DNA of 64,000 bases from Alteromonas australica (GTDB taxonomy: Bacteria; Pseudomonadota; Gammaproteobacteria; Enterobacterales; Alteromonadaceae), in the NCBI RefSeq assembly GCF_000730385.1, contig NZ_CP008849.1, forward strand, positions 1,798,001 through 1,862,000, written 5' to 3'. Position 1 is the stretch's first letter. Each line of letters opens with the position of its first letter. A program made the position numbers and the translations under genes. Of this stretch, positions 31,487 to 44,861 are shown piece by piece. Below the pieces are notes generated by a model. It was not told the origin of the DNA. It saw only the letters and a program-made list of their open reading frames with translations, and ran no database searches.

Positions 31487-32938
31487 TTGAATCTTATTGC
31501 GCGGTTAAGCGTTAGCGTTTTGTTTATCAGTTTGCTGTGGTCGCCGTTTGCCACGGCACAGCTTGCACAAGCACCAACCTCTGATACAACCTCATCTATT
31601 CTCCCCGATAATACCATTTCTTATTGCGTGGATCCTGACTGGGCACCCTACGAGGCTATTCGCAACGGCCAGCATATAGGGATATCCGCCGACTATATGC
31701 GAATAATTTCTGATTATACAGGTATCGCTTTTCAATTGGTTCCTACAGAGAGCTGGCAGGAAAGTTTAGAGTTTGTGCAAGCGGGCAAGTGTCAGATGAT
31801 TTCTATGCTTAACGTGTCAGATTTTAGGAAGCAATTTTTAGATTTTTCTATCCCTTATTTTGAAGCCCCTAATATTTTGGTCGCCAGAAAGGGAACGCCT
31901 ATTTTGCAAGGGTATGCGGGTATTGGTAATCGTTCTGTGGGTATTGTAAAAGGTTATCGACAAGTTGAGTACATTACCCGTTATTATCCGGAATTACGCT
32001 TAAAATTGATTAAGTCTGAGCGTGAAGGGTTGCTGCAATTAATGCAGGGCGAATTTGATGTCATGGTGGGCTCATTAATGAGCGTGAATACGCACATTAA
32101 TAATCAGAATATTCAGGATGTTGCCATAGTGGGCTACGCCGAACCTTTTGACTCCCTTGGCTTTGGGGTGAACAAGTCAATCAGCGATATTCTGCCCATT
32201 ATTAATCAAGCTATTGCGATTATTCCAGAAACTAAGCGTGTGGAGATATACCGTCAGTGGAACGATGTACAAGTGCGCTATCAACGGGATTATGTGAAGC
32301 TGGTCATGACCCTGATGTTTGTGCTGCTTGTGGTGATAGGGCTAGTTTGGCGCAATAGAACGGTGGCACTATACAAGCGCTTAATGAAACAGAAAAATGC
32401 AGAAATTGAGTCTTTGCAAACCACGCTATTAGACAGAAACCGTACCTTGGAATTTCTGTCAGCCCATGACTCGCTGACCGGGTTGTATAATCGTAATCAC
32501 ATGATTCAAAAAGCGGAAGAAGAAATTTCACGCTTTTTACGATTTCATACTCGGGCGTCGTTAATTGTGCTTGAGTTAATCCCCACAAAAGACAGAAGGC
32601 ATGAGACTGACCCTCAACATTGTGAGCAAGTGCTAAAAATACTGGCTTCGGTTTGTTTGGCTACGGTGAGGGAGGTTGACGTGGTGTCACGCTTTTCAGG
32701 TGAGCAATTTGCCGTATTGTGCCCACAAACCAATTTGGCAGAAGGTGAAGTCCTCGCCGAGCGTCTAATTACCGCCGTTACGGCCAATAGGGATATTACC
32801 GAGGCAGATATGACAGTGGCGGTGGGGTTGTCTGACTTAAAAGAAGGCGAAGGCTTTCCTGACTGGTTTGAACGCACGCACAAAGCGCTTTATCAATCGA
32901 AGCGACTGGGGTTCGGTAAATTAGCCATTGCTGAATAG
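31487..32938 (+). CDS. Periplasmic-sensor protein: SBP_bac_3 domain, TM helix and GGDEF domain with degenerate motif
   Basis: A 483-residue membrane sensor. A signal peptide (1-25) is followed by a solute-binding domain of the amino-acid-binding type (about 40-265, opening ISYCVDPDWAPYEAI). One TM helix spans about 270-290, and a GGDEF domain about 320-480. The domain opening DSLTGLYNRNHM is intact, but the signature reads SGEQF instead of GG(D/E)EF. The RxxD inhibitory site is kept exactly five residues before it (REVD). Periplasmic ligand binding would control the cytoplasmic domain; reduced or lost cyclase activity, or a receptor role, is my inference. The start is TTG at 31487 with a weak GGTGG upstream. 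Confidence 0.85.
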   Translation: MNLIARLSVSVLFISLLWSPFATAQLAQAPTSDTTSSILPDNTISYCVDPDWAPYEAIRNGQHIGISADYMRIISDYTGIAFQLVPTESWQESLEFVQAGKCQMISMLNVSDFRKQFLDFSIPYFEAPNILVARKGTPILQGYAGIGNRSVGIVKGYRQVEYITRYYPELRLKLIKSEREGLLQLMQGEFDVMVGSLMSVNTHINNQNIQDVAIVGYAEPFDSLGFGVNKSISDILPIINQAIAIIPETKRVEIYRQWNDVQVRYQRDYVKLVMTLMFVLLVVIGLVWRNRTVALYKRLMKQKNAEIESLQTTLLDRNRTLEFLSAHDSLTGLYNRNHMIQKAEEEISRFLRFHTRASLIVLELIPTKDRRHETDPQHCEQVLKILASVCLATVREVDVVSRFSGEQFAVLCPQTNLAEGEVLAERLITAVTANRDITEADMTVAVGLSDLKEGEGFPDWFERTHKALYQSKRLGFGKLAIAE

Positions 32939-36986: not shown

Positions 36987-37009
36987 AAAAAGGCCGCTTT
37001 TCAGCGGCC
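36987..37009 (-). terminator. Intrinsic terminator of the phytase operon
   Basis: GGCCGC/GCGGCC stem with a 6-nt loop; the T-run is on the minus strand only. It lies 86 nt after the phytase stop, so it ends the leftward operon. Confidence 0.8.
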
Positions 37010-37094
37010 GAATTTGCCTTACTTTTTTATTTATTGGTTTTTATTTTTGTCATTATTTCGCCCATAGCGTGTACGTCTACATCGCTTGAAACCC

Positions 37095-38879
37095 TTAGTT
37101 AGCGGCATTTAGGCTACGTATGGCGTGAGCCAGTGATGCACCGGTTACTATTTTAAAGTTTTGTTTTTCACTGGGCATAATGTTTCTGCCATCCTGAACC
37201 ACGAATATTCCCTCACTAAATTCGCCACCAAAGTTATAATTAGAGGTCGCTAAGCCATCGGTTTCCGATGCGCCATCAATGCTTTTTTCTCGATTCGCGG
37301 CAACTTCAATCATGCCAATCAACGAAAAGGTGTGATCGGTGGAATAGACAGCGTATTGATTGTTTCCTTGGCTGGATGCAATCAAATAGCGCACACCATC
37401 CACATCAAACAAACTTAACCCTTCAACATCACTTTCTACGGGCGCAGTGATGGTGATGGCAAGCTGTGGGCTGGCCTGTGTTTGATTTACATCTAGTGTC
37501 CATACACCTGTGCTTTCTTCCCCAAGGTATGCCACCCCCTTTTGTGTATCAACCACACAGCCTTCTGGTTGCGAGGGCAAGGTGAAGGCGTGCACCATGC
37601 TTGCATCAATGTTACCGCTATCAGGGTTCAAACTAAGCTGATAACGCAAATATTCGCCACTGGTACTGTTCACCAATACATCAATATTGCCGTTGTGGTT
37701 AAACGCACAGAGGCCGTATATGTCTGAAAGTGGTGTGGGTATATCTGACAATAAAGCCAATTCGCCGCTGCCTTGTGCCACAGATAAAACAGACAGGCTA
37801 TTGTGGGTTCTATTACTCGCAATGGCGAGCGCGTTAATGGGCGTACCAGTAGGCGTTACGCCCGCTGACGATATGGCGACGACTTCCACATTATTCACCT
37901 TACCAATGGGGTGGCTAGCCATGCGCTTTCCTTGCAGGCTATACGTGTTTAGTGCGCCTTTTTTGTCGGTGCCAATAATCAGGCTTTGCGCTGGGGACTG
38001 ACTGTTATACCAAATAGCGGGGTCGTCAGCCGCGTCGCCATAGTTATCCACGGGCGTGGTTTCGTACACGGCGAGTAATGGTATCGCTGTAGATTGCGAA
38101 GACGCTGCTGGGGCATCACAGGCGCTAAGTTTATCGGTAAGGCTTGCCGCATAAACCGCGCCCGTTTCGTCATCGTTAACATACAGCATGGGCACTGGGG
38201 TATCGGGCGAATCTGGTGATGAAAAACGGACTAATTCAGGAGCAATGTCCTTATCAAAAGAAAAGTAATGACGGGCACATTGGGTTTGCAGCCACACACC
38301 GCTGTGCGCTGGGCTTACCCACGCCACTAACGGGCCAGTAGCGTGCGAATAGCCTGTTGCCACCCCTTCTACTGGGGTGTCAGGCTGATAGAATTGCAAT
38401 GATTTCGATACTTCATGTTCTGGGTGCAATGGCATGGCCCAAAGACCCGAAAATTCATCGGCAAGGAATAAGGTGGCGCTTTTTAGCTGCGTGTTTTCTG
38501 CTTCCGTTATCGCACAGCTTTTTATGCCAGGGCCGATGGCGAAAGAACGCAATAGAGTGGGGGTATTGCCCCGCCATTCGTAGTGGTGCAGCATGTTTTC
38601 GGCATCAACATTAATCATGTGATAATAGGCGCCGATTTTTCCTGCACAAAGCGCTTCAACGCCCTTGCTAAACAGTGTGTCTACATGTGAAGGTGACGCT
38701 GAACGTATGTCGCTAGGCAGCGGGTATTCCGCCAGCTCATGTTCAACGGCTTGCAGCGCAAGTGGGGGCGTTGCGTTTTCTGTGTTGGTGGCGCAGGCAC
38801 TGCAACCGAGTGCAACGAAAAGGGATAAAGCCCAACGAAGGGGAGTAGGAAGAAGCGTGGGTATGGATAGCGCTGTCAT
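37095..38879 (-). CDS. Beta-propeller phytase (3-phytase), two-domain, lipoprotein-like
   Basis: A 594-residue exported protein. A signal with a lipobox-like end VALGC (Cys 26), then Ser at +2, suggests outer-membrane anchoring by Lol rules. Residues about 270-590 are a typical Ca-dependent beta-propeller phytase: DAADDPAIW (about 280-288), GTDKKGALNTYSLQGK, NNVEV and EGCVVDTQKGVAYLGEESTGVW. Residues about 45-265 look like a second, degenerate propeller without the DDPAIW motif, as in two-domain phytases where the first domain aids catalysis. It acts on phytate to release phosphate. The start is 2 nt after the phosphatase stop. Confidence 0.88.
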   Translation of the reverse strand: MTALSIPTLLPTPLRWALSLFVALGCSACATNTENATPPLALQAVEHELAEYPLPSDIRSASPSHVDTLFSKGVEALCAGKIGAYYHMINVDAENMLHHYEWRGNTPTLLRSFAIGPGIKSCAITEAENTQLKSATLFLADEFSGLWAMPLHPEHEVSKSLQFYQPDTPVEGVATGYSHATGPLVAWVSPAHSGVWLQTQCARHYFSFDKDIAPELVRFSSPDSPDTPVPMLYVNDDETGAVYAASLTDKLSACDAPAASSQSTAIPLLAVYETTPVDNYGDAADDPAIWYNSQSPAQSLIIGTDKKGALNTYSLQGKRMASHPIGKVNNVEVVAISSAGVTPTGTPINALAIASNRTHNSLSVLSVAQGSGELALLSDIPTPLSDIYGLCAFNHNGNIDVLVNSTSGEYLRYQLSLNPDSGNIDASMVHAFTLPSQPEGCVVDTQKGVAYLGEESTGVWTLDVNQTQASPQLAITITAPVESDVEGLSLFDVDGVRYLIASSQGNNQYAVYSTDHTFSLIGMIEVAANREKSIDGASETDGLATSNYNFGGEFSEGIFVVQDGRNIMPSEKQNFKIVTGASLAHAIRSLNAAN

Positions 38880-38881
38880 TA

Positions 38882-39844
38882 TTATTTCTCTAATTTCTTG
38901 ATGTGGTGGGAATAGATAAGTTGGCCGTTGTGGTCAATAAAGCGAAAGGTTAATAACGCATTATTAAGGCTTACGGCAACGAAGCCACCGGTAGATTTTG
39001 CAAATTGGGTAAAGTCGTATTGCCCCACAGGGCGCACTTCAGAGCCGCCGCCAGAGACAATATGCACCAGTTCGCTGCCCGCAATTTGATTATGTTGTAA
39101 ATCGTGCTCATGCCCTGCGATATAGGCATTCACCTGATATTTTTCAAAAATAGGTTCAAGCACGTCTTTAATGGCGTCCGTTTTTCCGTAGCGCTTACCG
39201 CTGGAATAAAGAGGATGGTGCCCTATAACAATTTTCCATGTGGCCTGGCTGTTAGCCAATTTGTCGTTAATCCACGCCAATTGTTCTTCATGCCCCTGTG
39301 AATAGGCGTTGCGATATTTTTCTTCAAACGCATAGTCAGGGTTTAGCGGGCTGGTGTCGATAAACAGCAACTGAACCTGTTGCTGGTTGTCCAATGTGAT
39401 GTACTTTTCATAATACTGCGAAGGCATTTGCCAGCGACGGCTAACCTGGCTGTAATCGATTTGCGCTTGCCAATTTCCTCGATAATCATGGTTGCCTAGC
39501 ACTGGGTACCAGTCAATAAACAAATGTGGATAGTGATAGATGTTTTCAAAGGAGGTTATCCAATAGGGGTCGTGTATTGATGCAACACCATTGTCGTAGA
39601 AATTGTCGCCCGTGGTCACAATAAACTCGGCATCCAACTGATAACTGGCGATATCTAACCATTTCGCCACCTCTTTTTGATAAAAATGGCCGTTTCTGCC
39701 CCAATCGCCCAGTACCAGAAAGGAAACCCCTTGGGCTTCTGTGGGTACGCCTTTAATAGCATGTTGTTTGTAATAGTCTAATGAAGTGGTTTGCGCTGAA
39801 CATAGTGAACAGGCCAATAACCAACCTAGTAAAAATAGTCGCAT
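38882..39844 (-). CDS. Purple-acid-type metallophosphatase (TRAP-like), secreted
   Basis: A 320-residue phosphatase with a signal peptide (MRLFLLGWLLACSLCSAQ). All five metal-ligand blocks are present in order: LGDWG (about 43), TGDNFYDNG (about 75-83), LGNHDYRG (about 114-121), IGHHPLYSSG (about 206-215) and GHEHDLQH (about 243-250). This is the tartrate-resistant acid phosphatase type with a Tyr in GDNFY. It likely removes phosphate from organic monoesters outside the cytoplasm. I start at ATG 39844 because the signal begins there; an upstream start at 39886 adds a non-signal stretch. It sits between the receptor and the phytase. Confidence 0.9.
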   Translation of the reverse strand: MRLFLLGWLLACSLCSAQTTSLDYYKQHAIKGVPTEAQGVSFLVLGDWGRNGHFYQKEVAKWLDIASYQLDAEFIVTTGDNFYDNGVASIHDPYWITSFENIYHYPHLFIDWYPVLGNHDYRGNWQAQIDYSQVSRRWQMPSQYYEKYITLDNQQQVQLLFIDTSPLNPDYAFEEKYRNAYSQGHEEQLAWINDKLANSQATWKIVIGHHPLYSSGKRYGKTDAIKDVLEPIFEKYQVNAYIAGHEHDLQHNQIAGSELVHIVSGGGSEVRPVGQYDFTQFAKSTGGFVAVSLNNALLTFRFIDHNGQLIYSHHIKKLEK

Positions 39845-39868
39845 GAAGTTGTCTCTGTTGTATCGATA

Positions 39869-39888
39869 GGGTGCGCTCACGCGCACCC
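39869..39888. repeat. GC-rich intercistronic hairpin
   Basis: Perfect 8-bp stem GGGTGCGC/GCGCACCC with a TCAC loop, 25 nt after the receptor stop on the operon strand, no T-run. It may stabilise the receptor mRNA end or lower downstream expression. Confidence 0.6.
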
Positions 39889-39913
39889 GCTTAGCTTGGT
39901 ATAGGGCAAATAA

Positions 39914-42619
39914 TTAGCGTAGCTGCCACGTAAAGCCAACTTGGTAAGTGCGGCCATATTCTTCATATTGCGCATTTTTGTTGCGCGTATCGAAGTAGTT
40001 GTAGAAAGGTTCATCGGTGAGGTTAACGGCATTGAAGTACAATTGCATGTCGTCGTTGATAAAGTACTTAGCCATGAAGTCTACCTGGGTGTGATCATCT
40101 TCAAAGCGCAGCATATCGCCGTCAATTTCTTCAAAGTTTTCGCTCTTATAGGTCATGGCTAAGCGTAAACTAAAGGCGTTAGCTTCGTAGCCGAACGTGA
40201 GGTTACCCACCCGATCTGACTGGTTCGGCAATTGGGTTTCGTAGGTTTCACCTTCCAGATAAGTGGTGGCTTCTGAGTCGGTAAAGGTGGCATTGGCGGC
40301 CACTAAGAAACCGTTATTAAATGCCTTCACCCACGATAGCTCTAAGCCGTGTAAGGTGGCGGTGTCACCATTAATAGCTTGTATTACCTCGTCGTAACCT
40401 TCCCAGCCTTCTGTGCCCGCTACATCGGCAAATACAACAAAGTTGTCGATATCTTTGTAGAAGTAACCTGCTGATAATACGCCAATGTCGCCTGGGTAGT
40501 ATTCCAATGCAATGTCGATGTTCTGTGCTTCATACGGATTTAGCTCAGGATTACCCACTTCAGCTTCGCGCTCAGTAACAAATTCGCCATCATCTTCTTC
40601 GGTTTTACTTTCAATGATTTGAAAGGCCGCCACATCTTCGAATTTAGGGCGAGAAATGGTTTGTGTATAGGCGCCTCTAAGTTGAAGCTTTTCAGAAAAG
40701 CTGTAACGCACGTTGATGCTTGGCAGCCAATGATCGTAATCTTTGTCAGAAGCCCAAGGGGTGTTAACCACTTCTTCAACATCAGTTTCTTCATTTTCGA
40801 TTAGCTCTACACGCATTCCCTCGGTGGAGAAATCTGTGCTTTCATAGCGTACACCTGCCACAATGTGCCAGTTGTTAATATCCACACTGCCCATGACGTA
40901 GGCGGCAAAAATATCTTCTTGGTTAACATAGGTTGCGCCATTAGATTCAATTTCTGAATCGAGTTCAGCTAACTCTAGGTTACTGCGGTTAGTGTTAAAG
41001 AAATCTCGCAGTCCAGTACGATCTAAACTTGGGCCAAAGTCACCTAGGCTGTAGTCTGGCGACGCACCCGCAAAATCAGCGGGGGCAATATCGTCAAAAT
41101 CACCATCATAAATGAAGATTTGGCTATCTCTGTCTTTTTCTCTGGTGCGATACTTAGTCCCCATTTTTAACTCACCTTTATAGTCACCTAAGGTGATAGG
41201 GCGAGTTAAATCAAGTTTGAAGCTGGTTTCCGTATCTTTTGTGTAGTTATCTTCAAACGCGATTTCATCCAGTTCATAGGTAGACAAATCCATGGCGTCA
41301 GCATCTTGGGTGACTTGTGGGATCATGGTTTCCAAGTTACTTTCAATGCTGTCGTTTTCGGTGACGAAATCGTAATAGAGCGCATTAGGTTCATCTTCAT
41401 CCGACATTGCATAGCCAACTTGCCAATCTGCCTGCCACGTGTCGAGTTGATGCTCACCGCCTAAGGCTACAGTAAATATACTTTGGCTTTCGTATCTGTC
41501 TTTGCTTGAACGAACAATTTCTGAGTCTTCACCGTCGAAGGTAAAGGCATTCGCCATACGGTACTCATCGTCTGAAAACTCACTGTACAAAGTGCGCAAG
41601 AAGTATTGGTTATTAAAATCGGGACGGTAATCAAAGTTTACCGCTGCACCCAAACGTTCGCGGGTAATAGAGTAATGACGTTGTTCAACTTCATCATCGC
41701 CATTGCTTTCTATGTTGTCAGACCCAAACTCACGGTCGAAGTAGGACAGGGCCGCGGCCACGCCAAAGTCGGGGGTGATTTTTTGCGTAAACGTGCCAGA
41801 AATTTTAGGGCTAGTTTCGTCGCGCAGGTCATTTTGACTGGCTTGCACGGTCACGCTGGCGGTGTCTTGCTGCTTATCAAATGCGCTAACGCTCTTTACA
41901 GACACAGAGCCGCCAATGGCATCACCGTCCATATCTGGCGTGACGGATTTAGACACTTCTAGCGTTTGAATGAGTTCTGAAGGAATAACGTCTAGCGCCA
42001 CAGAACGCACGCCAGATTCTGGTGATGGAATGTTTAACCCGTTAATTACCACATTATTCAGGTTAGGGTCGATACCGCGAATACCAACAAAGCGTCCTTC
42101 ACCTTGATCTCGTTCTATGGTGAGGCCAGGCAAACGTTGGAGGGACTCTGCAGCATTTTGATCGGGGAATTGACCAATGGCGTCAGCAGAAACCACATTT
42201 GAAATTCTATTCGACACACGTTGCTGGTTGATTGCGCTGGCTTGACTACTACGTTGGCCCAGCACCAGTAGCTCTTCTAACGTATCGTCTTCACCTAATA
42301 CGACAACCGGCGTAATGGTTTGGTCATCAGAAACCGTAATAGGAATACGCTTGGTTTGCTCACCAAGGTAACTCACTTCAAGGGTATAGTTGCCCGCAGG
42401 GACAGAAGGAAAACGGAATGAACCGTCGCGACGAGACTCTGTCACCAAATTTAATTCTTTGATTTTAATTTTTGCGCCCACGTAAACCCGCGCTTCGGCG
42501 CTGTCATTAATTTGCCCGGCAATAGCGCCATCCCCAGCAAGGGCTTGCTGAGAAATAGACATGCCTAACGCAGCGATACAAGCAATCGTTAACGGTTTAA
42601 GACGATTATTCATTTTCAT
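39914..42619 (-). CDS. TonB-dependent outer-membrane receptor of the phytase operon
   Basis: A 901-residue outer-membrane receptor. A signal peptide (about 1-28, ending QQALAGD) is followed by a carboxypeptidase-like regulatory domain (about 30-110), a TonB-box-like TLEELLVLG (about 113-121), the plug domain (about 130-250, with GRFVGIRGIDPNLNNVVING and DAIGGSVSVKS) and a 22-strand type barrel ending in RTYQVGFTWQLR. It belongs to the large marine/Caulobacter type of receptor. Its place ahead of two phosphatases and behind a Pho box suggests uptake of phytate or another organic phosphate; the substrate is inferred. The ribosome-binding site is weak. Confidence 0.92.
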   Translation of the reverse strand: MKMNNRLKPLTIACIAALGMSISQQALAGDGAIAGQINDSAEARVYVGAKIKIKELNLVTESRRDGSFRFPSVPAGNYTLEVSYLGEQTKRIPITVSDDQTITPVVVLGEDDTLEELLVLGQRSSQASAINQQRVSNRISNVVSADAIGQFPDQNAAESLQRLPGLTIERDQGEGRFVGIRGIDPNLNNVVINGLNIPSPESGVRSVALDVIPSELIQTLEVSKSVTPDMDGDAIGGSVSVKSVSAFDKQQDTASVTVQASQNDLRDETSPKISGTFTQKITPDFGVAAALSYFDREFGSDNIESNGDDEVEQRHYSITRERLGAAVNFDYRPDFNNQYFLRTLYSEFSDDEYRMANAFTFDGEDSEIVRSSKDRYESQSIFTVALGGEHQLDTWQADWQVGYAMSDEDEPNALYYDFVTENDSIESNLETMIPQVTQDADAMDLSTYELDEIAFEDNYTKDTETSFKLDLTRPITLGDYKGELKMGTKYRTREKDRDSQIFIYDGDFDDIAPADFAGASPDYSLGDFGPSLDRTGLRDFFNTNRSNLELAELDSEIESNGATYVNQEDIFAAYVMGSVDINNWHIVAGVRYESTDFSTEGMRVELIENEETDVEEVVNTPWASDKDYDHWLPSINVRYSFSEKLQLRGAYTQTISRPKFEDVAAFQIIESKTEEDDGEFVTEREAEVGNPELNPYEAQNIDIALEYYPGDIGVLSAGYFYKDIDNFVVFADVAGTEGWEGYDEVIQAINGDTATLHGLELSWVKAFNNGFLVAANATFTDSEATTYLEGETYETQLPNQSDRVGNLTFGYEANAFSLRLAMTYKSENFEEIDGDMLRFEDDHTQVDFMAKYFINDDMQLYFNAVNLTDEPFYNYFDTRNKNAQYEEYGRTYQVGFTWQLR

Positions 42620-42661
42620 TATTTATCCATTTTCTAAGTATGAAGAGTGCGATGCACGGCT

Positions 42662-42694
42662 AAAGTAGAAAGCGCATGTGACAATTCTGTGACG
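42662..42694 (-). promoter_or_regulatory. Pho box and -10 ahead of the phytase operon
   Basis: On the minus strand CGTCACAGAATTGTCACA (42694-42677) has two GTCA repeats 11 nt apart, the spacing of the PhoB box. Nine bases later comes TACTTT (42667-42662), a fair -10. The box would replace the -35, as in PhoB-activated promoters. The receptor ATG is 58 nt from the box. Confidence 0.65.
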
Positions 42695-42918
42695 TAGGGG
42701 AGATAAAAAACCAAGGAATGATGGATTTTAGCCTTAGATAAAAAACAGTGAGCTAAAATGACCCGTTATTAAGTTTATGAATTTAAATGAAATAATTGGA
42801 TTTTATCGTAGCTTTTCCTTTCGCTGACATCCGCTTGTCATATTCGTGAGCCAAAGTGACCCTCGACAATACCTGTGAAAGTGGGATATTTCACAGAAAA
42901 TTTAACCTTGAGTTTTAC

Positions 42919-43830
42919 ATGTTCAAATTACGTAATCACACCCAGTTTGGCCACCATAAAGGGTGGTTAGTATTCACCGTCGCCGTGTTATCTCTGGCAC
43001 TGGTGTTAAGTCTTAATGCGGGTAGCCCGAAGCTATTTGCCGAAATTTCATGGCTAGACATACTCGGGGAAGGCAGCATTGTTTTACTGACGTTGGCGTG
43101 GATCTTATCTGCGTTGGCGAGCCGGCCACCAGGCAAAGTGACGCGCTATATTGTGATTGGCCTGGGGTGTATTTTATTTTCGGCCAGCCTCGATTTACTC
43201 GATGAATTTCTGCGTTATCCCCCTGCGTCCCATTGGCTCAGTATGATTGAATCTTTTCCTGCTGTAGTTGGAATGTTAGTGATGACCGGGGCCTTGTATT
43301 TATGGCACCACGAACAGCGGGCGATTAATATTCAGTTGCGACGAAGAGAGTGGGATTATCGCGATCATGGTGAAATAGACCCCATTACGCAGCTTTATCG
43401 CGGGGAGTATTGGCAAGCCCGCGCGGCAGCGTTTCAGGAAAGTGGGGGGAACGGTTATGTTGCCATTATAGATATCAATGATTTTTCCTACTTTAACGAG
43501 CGCTATGGGCAAGCTGAAGGTGACCGATATCTGCATGAAGTGGCGCAATTACTTATTATGAATTTACGGCAGCAAGATTTGGCCTGTCGGTATGCAGGGG
43601 ACAGATTCGCGCTTTTATTGCCCGACGTATGTGAAACCCAAGCCTATAATATTGTAAAACAAATTTGCATTAGCATTGAGCATGTCGCCTTTAGACATCA
43701 AGCAAGTGCAGAGGCGATTTATACCAGTGCCCGCGCCGAAGTGGCTCAGCTTACGCCAGTATCCCATTTACCCAACATTCTTAGAGGTATGTTGGGTAAG
43801 TTAGAGAAAGGCCAGAGGACTGCTGCCTAA
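42919..43830 (+). CDS. Membrane protein with degenerate GGDEF domain
   Basis: A 303-residue protein with about four hydrophobic segments (residues about 15-35, 45-68, 75-97 and 112-130) and a C-terminal GGDEF-like domain (about 150-290). The domain opening reads DPITQLYRGEY, lacking the usual Asn-Arg, and the signature reads AGDRF. The RxxD site (RQQD) is kept five residues before. Cyclase activity is doubtful; c-di-GMP binding at the RxxD site is possible. The start ATG 42919 fits the first membrane segment better than GTG 42856. Its stop overlaps the AraC start as TAATG, so the two are translationally coupled. Confidence 0.8.
   Translation: MFKLRNHTQFGHHKGWLVFTVAVLSLALVLSLNAGSPKLFAEISWLDILGEGSIVLLTLAWILSALASRPPGKVTRYIVIGLGCILFSASLDLLDEFLRYPPASHWLSMIESFPAVVGMLVMTGALYLWHHEQRAINIQLRRREWDYRDHGEIDPITQLYRGEYWQARAAAFQESGGNGYVAIIDINDFSYFNERYGQAEGDRYLHEVAQLLIMNLRQQDLACRYAGDRFALLLPDVCETQAYNIVKQICISIEHVAFRHQASAEAIYTSARAEVAQLTPVSHLPNILRGMLGKLEKGQRTAA
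43768..43799. repeat. Perfect 11-bp inverted repeat at the end of the GGDEF gene
   Basis: TTACCCAACAT and its exact complement around a 10-nt loop, 31 nt before the AraC start codon. It can form a strong mRNA hairpin before the coupled start or serve as a DNA operator. Confidence 0.65.
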
Positions 43831-44861
43831 TGGCACTGACGTCGCCACCGTTGCCAGTTAGCAAACACGATAAGGTGATCCCCGGTTATCACTTTGTGTG
43901 CGCCGTGCTAGCTATTGCTGAACCTCGGGGCGTGTCTGTGCATAAGTTATTGAGAGGCACAGGGATATTTGACGATGCGATAACCCCTAATTTGCGGGTA
44001 AGTGGTAAACAACTTATCGCCTTAATAGGCAATGTACAAAGCTATTGTAAAGCGAAAGACGCCAGCTTTCTTATTGGCAAGCATTTGGCCAATGCCTTGT
44101 TAAACCATGAATTTTCGTCCATCAAAGACGCGGGCAGCCTAACTCAGGTGATACGACTGGTCACCACACAGCGTTGGCTGTGTTTACCGTTAGTGTCTTT
44201 TGCACGCTATGAAGTGAATGAGAATAGTCTGTGGGTAGCAAGGGATGCCATGGGGTGCAGCAAAATTTGGCCATTTGTAATGCAAATTAGCCTATCCATG
44301 TTAGTGGCATTTGCGAAAGCGAGCAGTAAAACCCGCCTGCCGTTTCATTTTGGCATGACGGCGTCTCGGCCACGTAATATTGAAGATTTTGAAACCTATT
44401 TAGGTTTGCGATTAAATTTTAATGCCCCTTTTATGTCGTTGATGCTGCCTAAAGGAAGTGTGCTGGCCCCCTTTGAACGCGGGAATGTGGGTGGGGAAGC
44501 GCAGCATGGCTCTCTCGTTGAGCCTGAAATTGGCACCCATACCAGCAGTGACGCTACACTGAGTATACTCGATAAGGTGAGATTACTTACTGAGCATAAT
44601 TTGCACGCCAGCTTGCCCGATGCGGCCGCCGAGTTTTCAATGAGTGCTGCCACCTTTAAGCGCAAACTAAAAGAGCACGAATACAGTTATCGTGCGCTTA
44701 CAGAAGAGGTAAGGCGAGAGCAGGCAATCGTATTGTTGGCAATGAAAAAGCTTAACAATGAACAAAGTGCCTCTGAAATGGCATTTTCCGATTTGCCTAA
44801 TTTTAGGCGGGCGGTTAAGCGACTGACGGGCCATACGCCAAGTGAACTAAGGGCGCTATAA
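43830..44861 (+). CDS. AraC-family transcriptional regulator
   Basis: A 343-residue regulator. The N-terminal part (about 15-205) fits the arabinose-binding-like domain of the OruR/ArgR-type AraC group (GVSVHKLLRGTGI, then VRLVTTQRWLC-like core). The C-terminal DNA-binding domain (about 245-343) has two helix-turn-helix units: LPDAAAEFSMSAATFKRKLKEHEYSYRAL and ASEMAFSDLPNFRRAVKRLTGHTPSEL. Its start overlaps the stop of the GGDEF gene by one base. Downstream, the NhaC gene starts 67 nt later and may be a target or operon partner. The effector is unknown. Confidence 0.88.
   Translation: MALTSPPLPVSKHDKVIPGYHFVCAVLAIAEPRGVSVHKLLRGTGIFDDAITPNLRVSGKQLIALIGNVQSYCKAKDASFLIGKHLANALLNHEFSSIKDAGSLTQVIRLVTTQRWLCLPLVSFARYEVNENSLWVARDAMGCSKIWPFVMQISLSMLVAFAKASSKTRLPFHFGMTASRPRNIEDFETYLGLRLNFNAPFMSLMLPKGSVLAPFERGNVGGEAQHGSLVEPEIGTHTSSDATLSILDKVRLLTEHNLHASLPDAAAEFSMSAATFKRKLKEHEYSYRALTEEVRREQAIVLLAMKKLNNEQSASEMAFSDLPNFRRAVKRLTGHTPSELRAL

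Follow-up and report, generated by a model that had tools for sequence, protein, structure and literature searches.

A TonB receptor–phytase operon of Alteromonas australica as one half of a putative phosphate-starvation divergon with a degenerate GGDEF protein and an AraC regulator

In Flavobacterium johnsoniae, a phytase and its neighbouring TonB transporter (Fjoh_1367/Fjoh_1368) are reported to be induced by phosphate depletion (PMC8115612). The Alteromonas australica locus described here likewise has a PF02333 phytase neighbouring a TonB-dependent transporter. The Flavobacterium pair differs in belonging to another phylum, and the available part of that report mentions neither a GGDEF-AraC partner nor an ACP5-type phosphatase. 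PhoB of Caulobacter controls TonB receptors and a phytase, which the available text does not describe as a single operon accompanied by a divergent signalling pair (PMC11208175). The phytase gene of Alteromonas macleodii MIT1002 is described, in the portion of the source available, as up-regulated in co-culture with Prochlorococcus (PMC6972757). The RapA/LapD system of Pseudomonas fluorescens is a low-phosphate c-di-GMP circuit in which, according to the accessible text, the Pho-box-controlled RapA degrades c-di-GMP (PMC3032545). Our locus resembles that circuit in having a c-di-GMP-type signalling gene behind a Pho-box-like repeat, and differs in that the gene encodes a degenerate GGDEF protein, with an AraC regulator, beside a phytase operon. 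The receptor–phytase operon itself is of an already known type; the variation lies in the conserved divergent signalling pair and in the switch from one phytase family to another within this locus. A literature search that covered few subscription journals found no account of a GGDEF-AraC partner of a phytase locus.

The window analysed is a stretch of 64,000 nucleotides from the host genome, a single contig of 4.31 Mb. The receptor, phosphatase, and phytase frames are all complete, run leftward, and belong to the families first given for them (Table 1). Two nucleotides separate the phosphatase stop from the phytase start, and a terminator-like hairpin about 85 nt past the phytase stop closes the leftward operon. 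The first-pass annotation had described three genes for exported proteins in one tightly spaced leftward unit with its own terminator, and the frames, families, and hairpin were found as claimed. Its term "self-contained" does not hold. The divergent GGDEF-AraC pair, preceded by a Pho-box-like repeat of its own, is linked to the receptor at least as tightly as the phytase is; among family genomes with the receptor, the GGDEF gene is adjacent in 79 of 89 and the phytase linked in 70 of 89. The receptor-phosphatase-phytase unit is one half of a divergon whose other half is the GGDEF-AraC pair. A contig scan with the phytase gave one hit, a nearly identical locus in Alteromonas profundi (97% in the phytase).

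Table 1 Features of the divergon, in window coordinates
Feature	Coordinates	Strand	Remarks
Terminator-like hairpin	36992..37009	-	7-pair stem, 6 G-C pairs, T-rich tail
Beta-propeller phytase	37095..38879	-	PF02333; signal-like N-terminus
ACP5/TRAP-type purple acid phosphatase	38882..39886	-	ORF from GTG; likely ATG start 39844
TonB-dependent receptor, N-terminal carboxypeptidase-regulatory-like domain	39914..42619	-	TIGR01782
Pho-box-like direct repeat, receptor side	42678..42695	-	two heptamers, 11-nt period; 76 nt 5' of receptor start
Pho-box-like direct repeat, GGDEF side	42824..42841	+	before divergent GGDEF gene
Membrane protein (predicted), degenerate GGDEF domain	42919..43830	+	RYAGDRF motif, I-site RQQD; ORF readable from GTG 42856
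AraC-family regulator	43830..44861	+	1-base overlap with GGDEF gene

The window receptor has a plug and a barrel and matches the TonB-Xanth-Caul model TIGR01782 at 8.3e-168 (560 bits, cut-off 310). Among solved structures, no chain matched it at 1e-10. In one related locus (L078, genome G034) the receptor gene, of 742 residues, is broken by about 300 nt near residue 285.

The phosphatase matches Metallophos (PF00149, 1.9e-21), and the solved structures nearest to it are those of mammalian ACP5/TRAP purple acid phosphatases (1war, 9.1e-39). Among the 28 phosphatases of more than 300 residues from the window and the genus loci, the DWG, GDxxY, GNHD, and GHxH motifs occur in all 28 and GHHP in 27. 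By these motifs and its solved relatives, the protein is assigned to the ACP5/TRAP purple acid phosphatases. The original description of a purple-acid-type enzyme with all metal ligands is thus upheld, the ligand motifs being present and conserved in relatives.

The phytase matches PF02333 at 1.1e-57 (196 bits, cut-off 21), with the match limited to residues 255-587, and its closest solved relatives are Bacillus-type beta-propeller 3-phytases (3amr, 5e-48). The positions DDP, SNR, YG, PEG, EE, D-EG, SSQG, ETDG, and QDG are conserved across almost the whole set of 70 aligned phytases. A lysine commonly assigned to the propeller active site is a threonine in the window phytase and in most relatives. 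Dual-domain beta-propeller phytases such as PhyH combine an incomplete N-terminal propeller with a complete C-terminal one. The window protein has the same arrangement, with an N-terminal part that is strongly degenerate and shorter than in 63 of the 70 aligned phytases (measured on stop-to-stop frames). Its N-terminal stretch of about 200 residues is related to the C-terminal domain (profile E 1.3e-18, 11% identity in a local alignment) and aligns with only the later part of it, approximately columns 105-320 of the 320-column C-terminal profile. For many relatives, the PF02333 model recognises the N-terminal part as well. No second complete propeller was found in the window phytase, its N-terminal part being incomplete, degenerate, and without the catalytic motifs. 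The description "two-propeller" therefore applies to the intact C-terminal propeller and, for the N-terminal one, only to a remnant; judged by its motifs, the enzyme has a single catalytic propeller, which starts near residue 255. The phytase had also been credited with a lipobox-like signal. Neither a canonical lipobox nor a loose pattern was found within the first 90 residues of the window frame; the loose pattern occurs in that stretch in 33 of the 70 related phytases.

Conservation of the locus was followed through 59 genomes of the genus, 246 of the family, and 394 of the order, the last set overlapping the family set. The searches scored the best candidates per genome (receptor, up to 15 in the genus and 3 in the family; GGDEF, up to 39, 9, and 5 in genus, family, and order), and absences are absences at that depth. 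Within the genus, the receptor was found in 46 of 59 genomes, the phytase in 45, and the GGDEF orthologue in 45. Phytase and GGDEF gene are present in the same 45 and absent from the same 14 genomes; these genomes are related, so they do not amount to 59 independent observations. Phytase and receptor share a contig in 44 of the 45 phytase genomes, and in the 45th (G053) two contig ends cut through the phosphatase between them. Their linkage in the genus is not chance. The three-gene order, sought in relatives as had been proposed, recurs in 28 of the 45 genus phytase operons, G053 included, but is not essential.

In the family, the phytase occurs in 81 and the GGDEF gene in 91 of the 246 genomes. 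Directly upstream of the 30 best-scoring family phytases, all from outside the genus, lies a phosphatase in 20 cases and a receptor in 9. The GGDEF gene stands divergently beside the receptor in 79 of its 91 carriers, 67 of them with a linked phytase and 12 without. The other 12 carriers comprise five with the gene near a phytase but without a receptor hit at the threshold, three with it beside a more distant receptor, and four with the genes on other contigs. Ten genomes are exceptions of another kind: four have the phytase without a receptor or GGDEF hit, five have the receptor alone, and one, lacking a GGDEF hit, has linked receptor and phytase genes. In L186, from one of the four phytase-only genomes, a receptor-type gene immediately precedes the phytase.

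Across the order, 39 of 394 genomes carry the GGDEF gene, 21 of them outside the family. In 19 of these 21, a phytase lies within about 4.5 kb on the opposite strand (read by hand); the other two genomes are 60% and 80% complete and have a receptor adjacent to the GGDEF gene. Conversely, 6 of the 25 non-family phytase genomes in the order draw gave no GGDEF hit, and two of these six phytase hits are fragmentary. At G456:C1:3868943-3872223, a phytase match lies about 0.4 kb from a divergent GGDEF match, with no space for a receptor between them.

The hydrolases are less constant. A phosphatase match occurs in 31 of the 59 genus genomes, including two remnants of 66 residues and one gene split over contig ends. 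A full phosphatase gene is absent from 17 of the 45 genus phytase operons, 15 without a match and two with remnants (L034 and L035, where the 66 residues remain between receptor and phytase). On a tree of 82 receptors, the small phosphatase was gained or lost at least 11 times. The whole hydrolase set changed at least 18 times on this tree, and the propeller phytase was exchanged with other sets at least six times. The tree is a quick one without bootstrap and with a long-branch warning; it omits L054 (no receptor), L078 (broken receptor), L170, L185, and L186, and labels L072 as phosphatase-only, its further enzyme having been found later. The frequent absence and repeated change of the phosphatase weaken the proposal that it finishes the lower inositol phosphates, which does not stand as an obligatory step.

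Forty family stretches (L147-L186) were fetched. In 11 of them a phytase is lacking and the gene after the receptor encodes another, larger phosphatase (four were scanned against Pfam and the rest assigned by similarity), so not every such receptor need carry phytate. One family locus has a 291-residue phosphoesterase. Three (L159-L161) have a histidine-type phosphatase, and two of the three encode an additional purple-acid-type enzyme. In L160 the histidine phosphatase matches a solved MINPP at 6.6e-75, and those of L159 and L161 are 43-44% identical to the MINPP of L072. MINPP (7zgf) belongs to PF00328, a family unrelated to the propeller phytases, and is found in L072 and L159-L161 and absent from the window. 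In L159-L161 it sits on the same AraC-GGDEF divergon, with receptors only 30-31% identical to that of the window; this lineage thus supports the locus more than the receptor.

L072 (G030:C3:60000-69700) belongs to the genus. Here a MINPP gene (7zgf, 1.2e-70) immediately precedes the receptor gene and is read in the same direction, giving the order MINPP-receptor-phosphatase, with the receptor matching at 66% and the phosphatase at 56%. No propeller phytase and no GGDEF hit were found in this genome, the only such genus genome with receptor and phosphatase, and no good Pho-box-like repeat was found at the locus (best score 11). An integrase-core transposase-type gene lies about 2 kb beyond the phosphatase. 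The MINPP of L072 beside an orthologous receptor and phosphatase is the best sequence evidence for an inositol polyphosphate substrate. These arrangements indicate that the hydrolase in the locus is exchangeable and that MINPP takes the place of the propeller phytase in two lineages, and replacement of one enzyme by an unrelated one with the same presumed substrate points to inositol phosphates.

Phosphatase and phytase could instead each have a substrate of its own and be united only by a common Pho promoter, with the receptor serving a general organic-phosphate ligand. The many changes of the small phosphatase and of the hydrolase set on the receptor tree would fit such an arrangement, as would the 11 loci with a larger phosphatase in place of the phytase. 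We regard it as unlikely, given that two unrelated phytase folds occur with the same receptor family and divergon and that receptor and phytase go together throughout the genus phytase genomes. Phytate or inositol phosphates remain the best guess for the substrate, as first suggested, and the guess now has independent support from the MINPP exchange and the conserved Pho-box-like repeats.

The repeats were scored out of 14 against an assumed heptamer consensus. In the genus (46 loci, 45 fetched plus the window), the best repeat reached at least 12 in 43 loci, which are related, against 26 of 920 shuffles, which keep base but not dinucleotide content and ignore kinship. By direction, the receptor side reached this score in 41 of the 46 and the GGDEF side in 32. 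The same threshold was reached in the family on the receptor side by 25 of 38 loci (shuffles, 6 of 760) and on the GGDEF side by 17 of 38 (7 of 760). The best score is only 11 in L067, L072, and L076. A scan of the host's own genome with a similar Pho-box pattern, allowing up to three mismatches, gave 1013 sites against 854 for the reversed pattern; with so little excess, we relied on conservation instead. The three best forward-strand sites listed adjoin genes that, by eye, were not recognised as Pho genes. The conserved box-like repeats, set against the weak genome-wide signal, make the locus a candidate member of the Pho regulon, with putative binding by PhoB.

Elsewhere in the host genome (G000:C1, about 784-796 kb; stretches L145, L112, and L146) lie phoB-like and phoR-like genes and pstS (PF12849). 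Repeats near phoB score only 11 of 14, and others nearby in the phoB-phoR-pstS stretch score 12. Further on from pstS come two ORFs, a Thr-rich lipoprotein-like one of 1361 residues and one of 919 residues that begins, by eye, like a TonB-type receptor. This stretch with its Pho-box-like repeats is a candidate second phosphate outer-membrane locus.

Iron uptake is the classical role of TonB receptors, and phytate is an iron chelator. The receptor might accordingly import iron-phytate or iron, with the phytase freeing the metal and the locus serving iron rather than phosphorus nutrition. We think this very improbable in view of the Pho-box-like repeats on both sides and partner enzymes that are phosphatases of several kinds. 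Fur control was considered for the window intergenic region and rejected, no Fur-like site rising above shuffles: the best Fur-box there scores 11 of 19, equalled or beaten by 187 of 200 shuffles.

The divergent gene encodes a protein that scores above the Pfam GGDEF cut-off and is predicted, from its hydrophobic N-terminus, to be located in the membrane. Aligned with PleD, its motif reads RYAGDRF where PleD has RYGGEEF, and the intact GG(D/E)EF active site of a diguanylate cyclase was not found in the window protein. The departure is conserved. Among 83 aligned relatives, the glutamate of GG(D/E)EF is replaced by arginine in 79 and the first glycine by alanine in 80; the motif's D and F are kept in all 83, and types of the A-G-D-R-F or A-S-D-R-F form account for 78 (62+9+5+2, summed over the listed variants of the two residues ahead of the motif). 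Nine further family and order matches, some overlapping with the 83, have AGDRF (seven) or AGDCF (two). Directly after the conserved F, where PleD has a lysine, the motif types listed have serine or some other residue. The I-site R and D are each kept in 80 of 83 relatives, the metal aspartate in 78, and the guanine-site asparagine in 79, with these roles taken from PleD. Another GGDEF protein of the window, at 31487-32938, combines a solute-binding domain with the motif SGEQF, so odd GGDEF motifs are not confined to the divergent gene.

The protein might nonetheless be an active diguanylate cyclase, raising c-di-GMP at low phosphate and so linking phytate use to particle attachment. Its above-threshold GGDEF score and largely conserved metal, guanine-site, and I-site residues speak for such activity, and a Pho-controlled c-di-GMP enzyme exists in Pseudomonas fluorescens, although RapA is, in the accessible text, a phosphodiesterase and so of opposite sign (PMC3032545). 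The near-uniform loss of the motif glutamate and first glycine, together with replacement of the lysine after the F, makes cyclase activity doubtful in our judgement. A degenerate motif with a retained I-site suggests nucleotide binding without normal cyclase activity, and the GGDEF protein is probably a nucleotide receptor.

An AraC gene occupies the matching place in all 45 genus loci that have the GGDEF gene (window included) and in 37 of 38 family loci, and the N-terminal part of the GGDEF protein contains invariant acidic residues. We tentatively suggest, as a possibility that falls somewhat short of likely, that the two genes form a dedicated cassette in which the putative pseudo-GGDEF protein reads c-di-GMP or GTP and, through AraC and on top of PhoB, licenses inositol-phosphate scavenging with whichever phytase fold is present. 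In such a cassette the protein would perhaps also sense a periplasmic signal through its invariant acidic residues.

Taken as a whole, the locus is in our view quite likely a PhoB-type phosphate-starvation divergon for inositol polyphosphate use, where ligand, PhoB binding, order of hydrolysis, and the part played by the GGDEF-AraC pair are deduced from sequence comparison. Phosphate shortage would cause PhoB to bind both boxes, one at either side of the intergenic region. Leftward expression would supply a TonB receptor that brings phytate, probably metal-bound, through the outer membrane and a periplasmic or outer-membrane phytase that removes phosphate, with the purple acid phosphatase as an optional, broad addition. 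Rightward, the membrane degenerate-GGDEF protein, which probably binds GTP or c-di-GMP without making c-di-GMP, and the AraC regulator would probably tune the locus.

The capacity of marine bacteria to use phytate is often assessed by a phytase gene alone. At this locus the stable core is the receptor with the signalling pair, and the enzymes are exchanged; receptor and pair thus offer a genomic marker for inositol-phosphate use that is independent of enzyme fold. The cassette, if true, would extend across eight or more families of the order. The locus also suggests that phosphate starvation and a conserved pseudo-GGDEF protein are connected, a link that can be put to the test and may help to show how such bacteria decide when to use the phosphorus of phytate.
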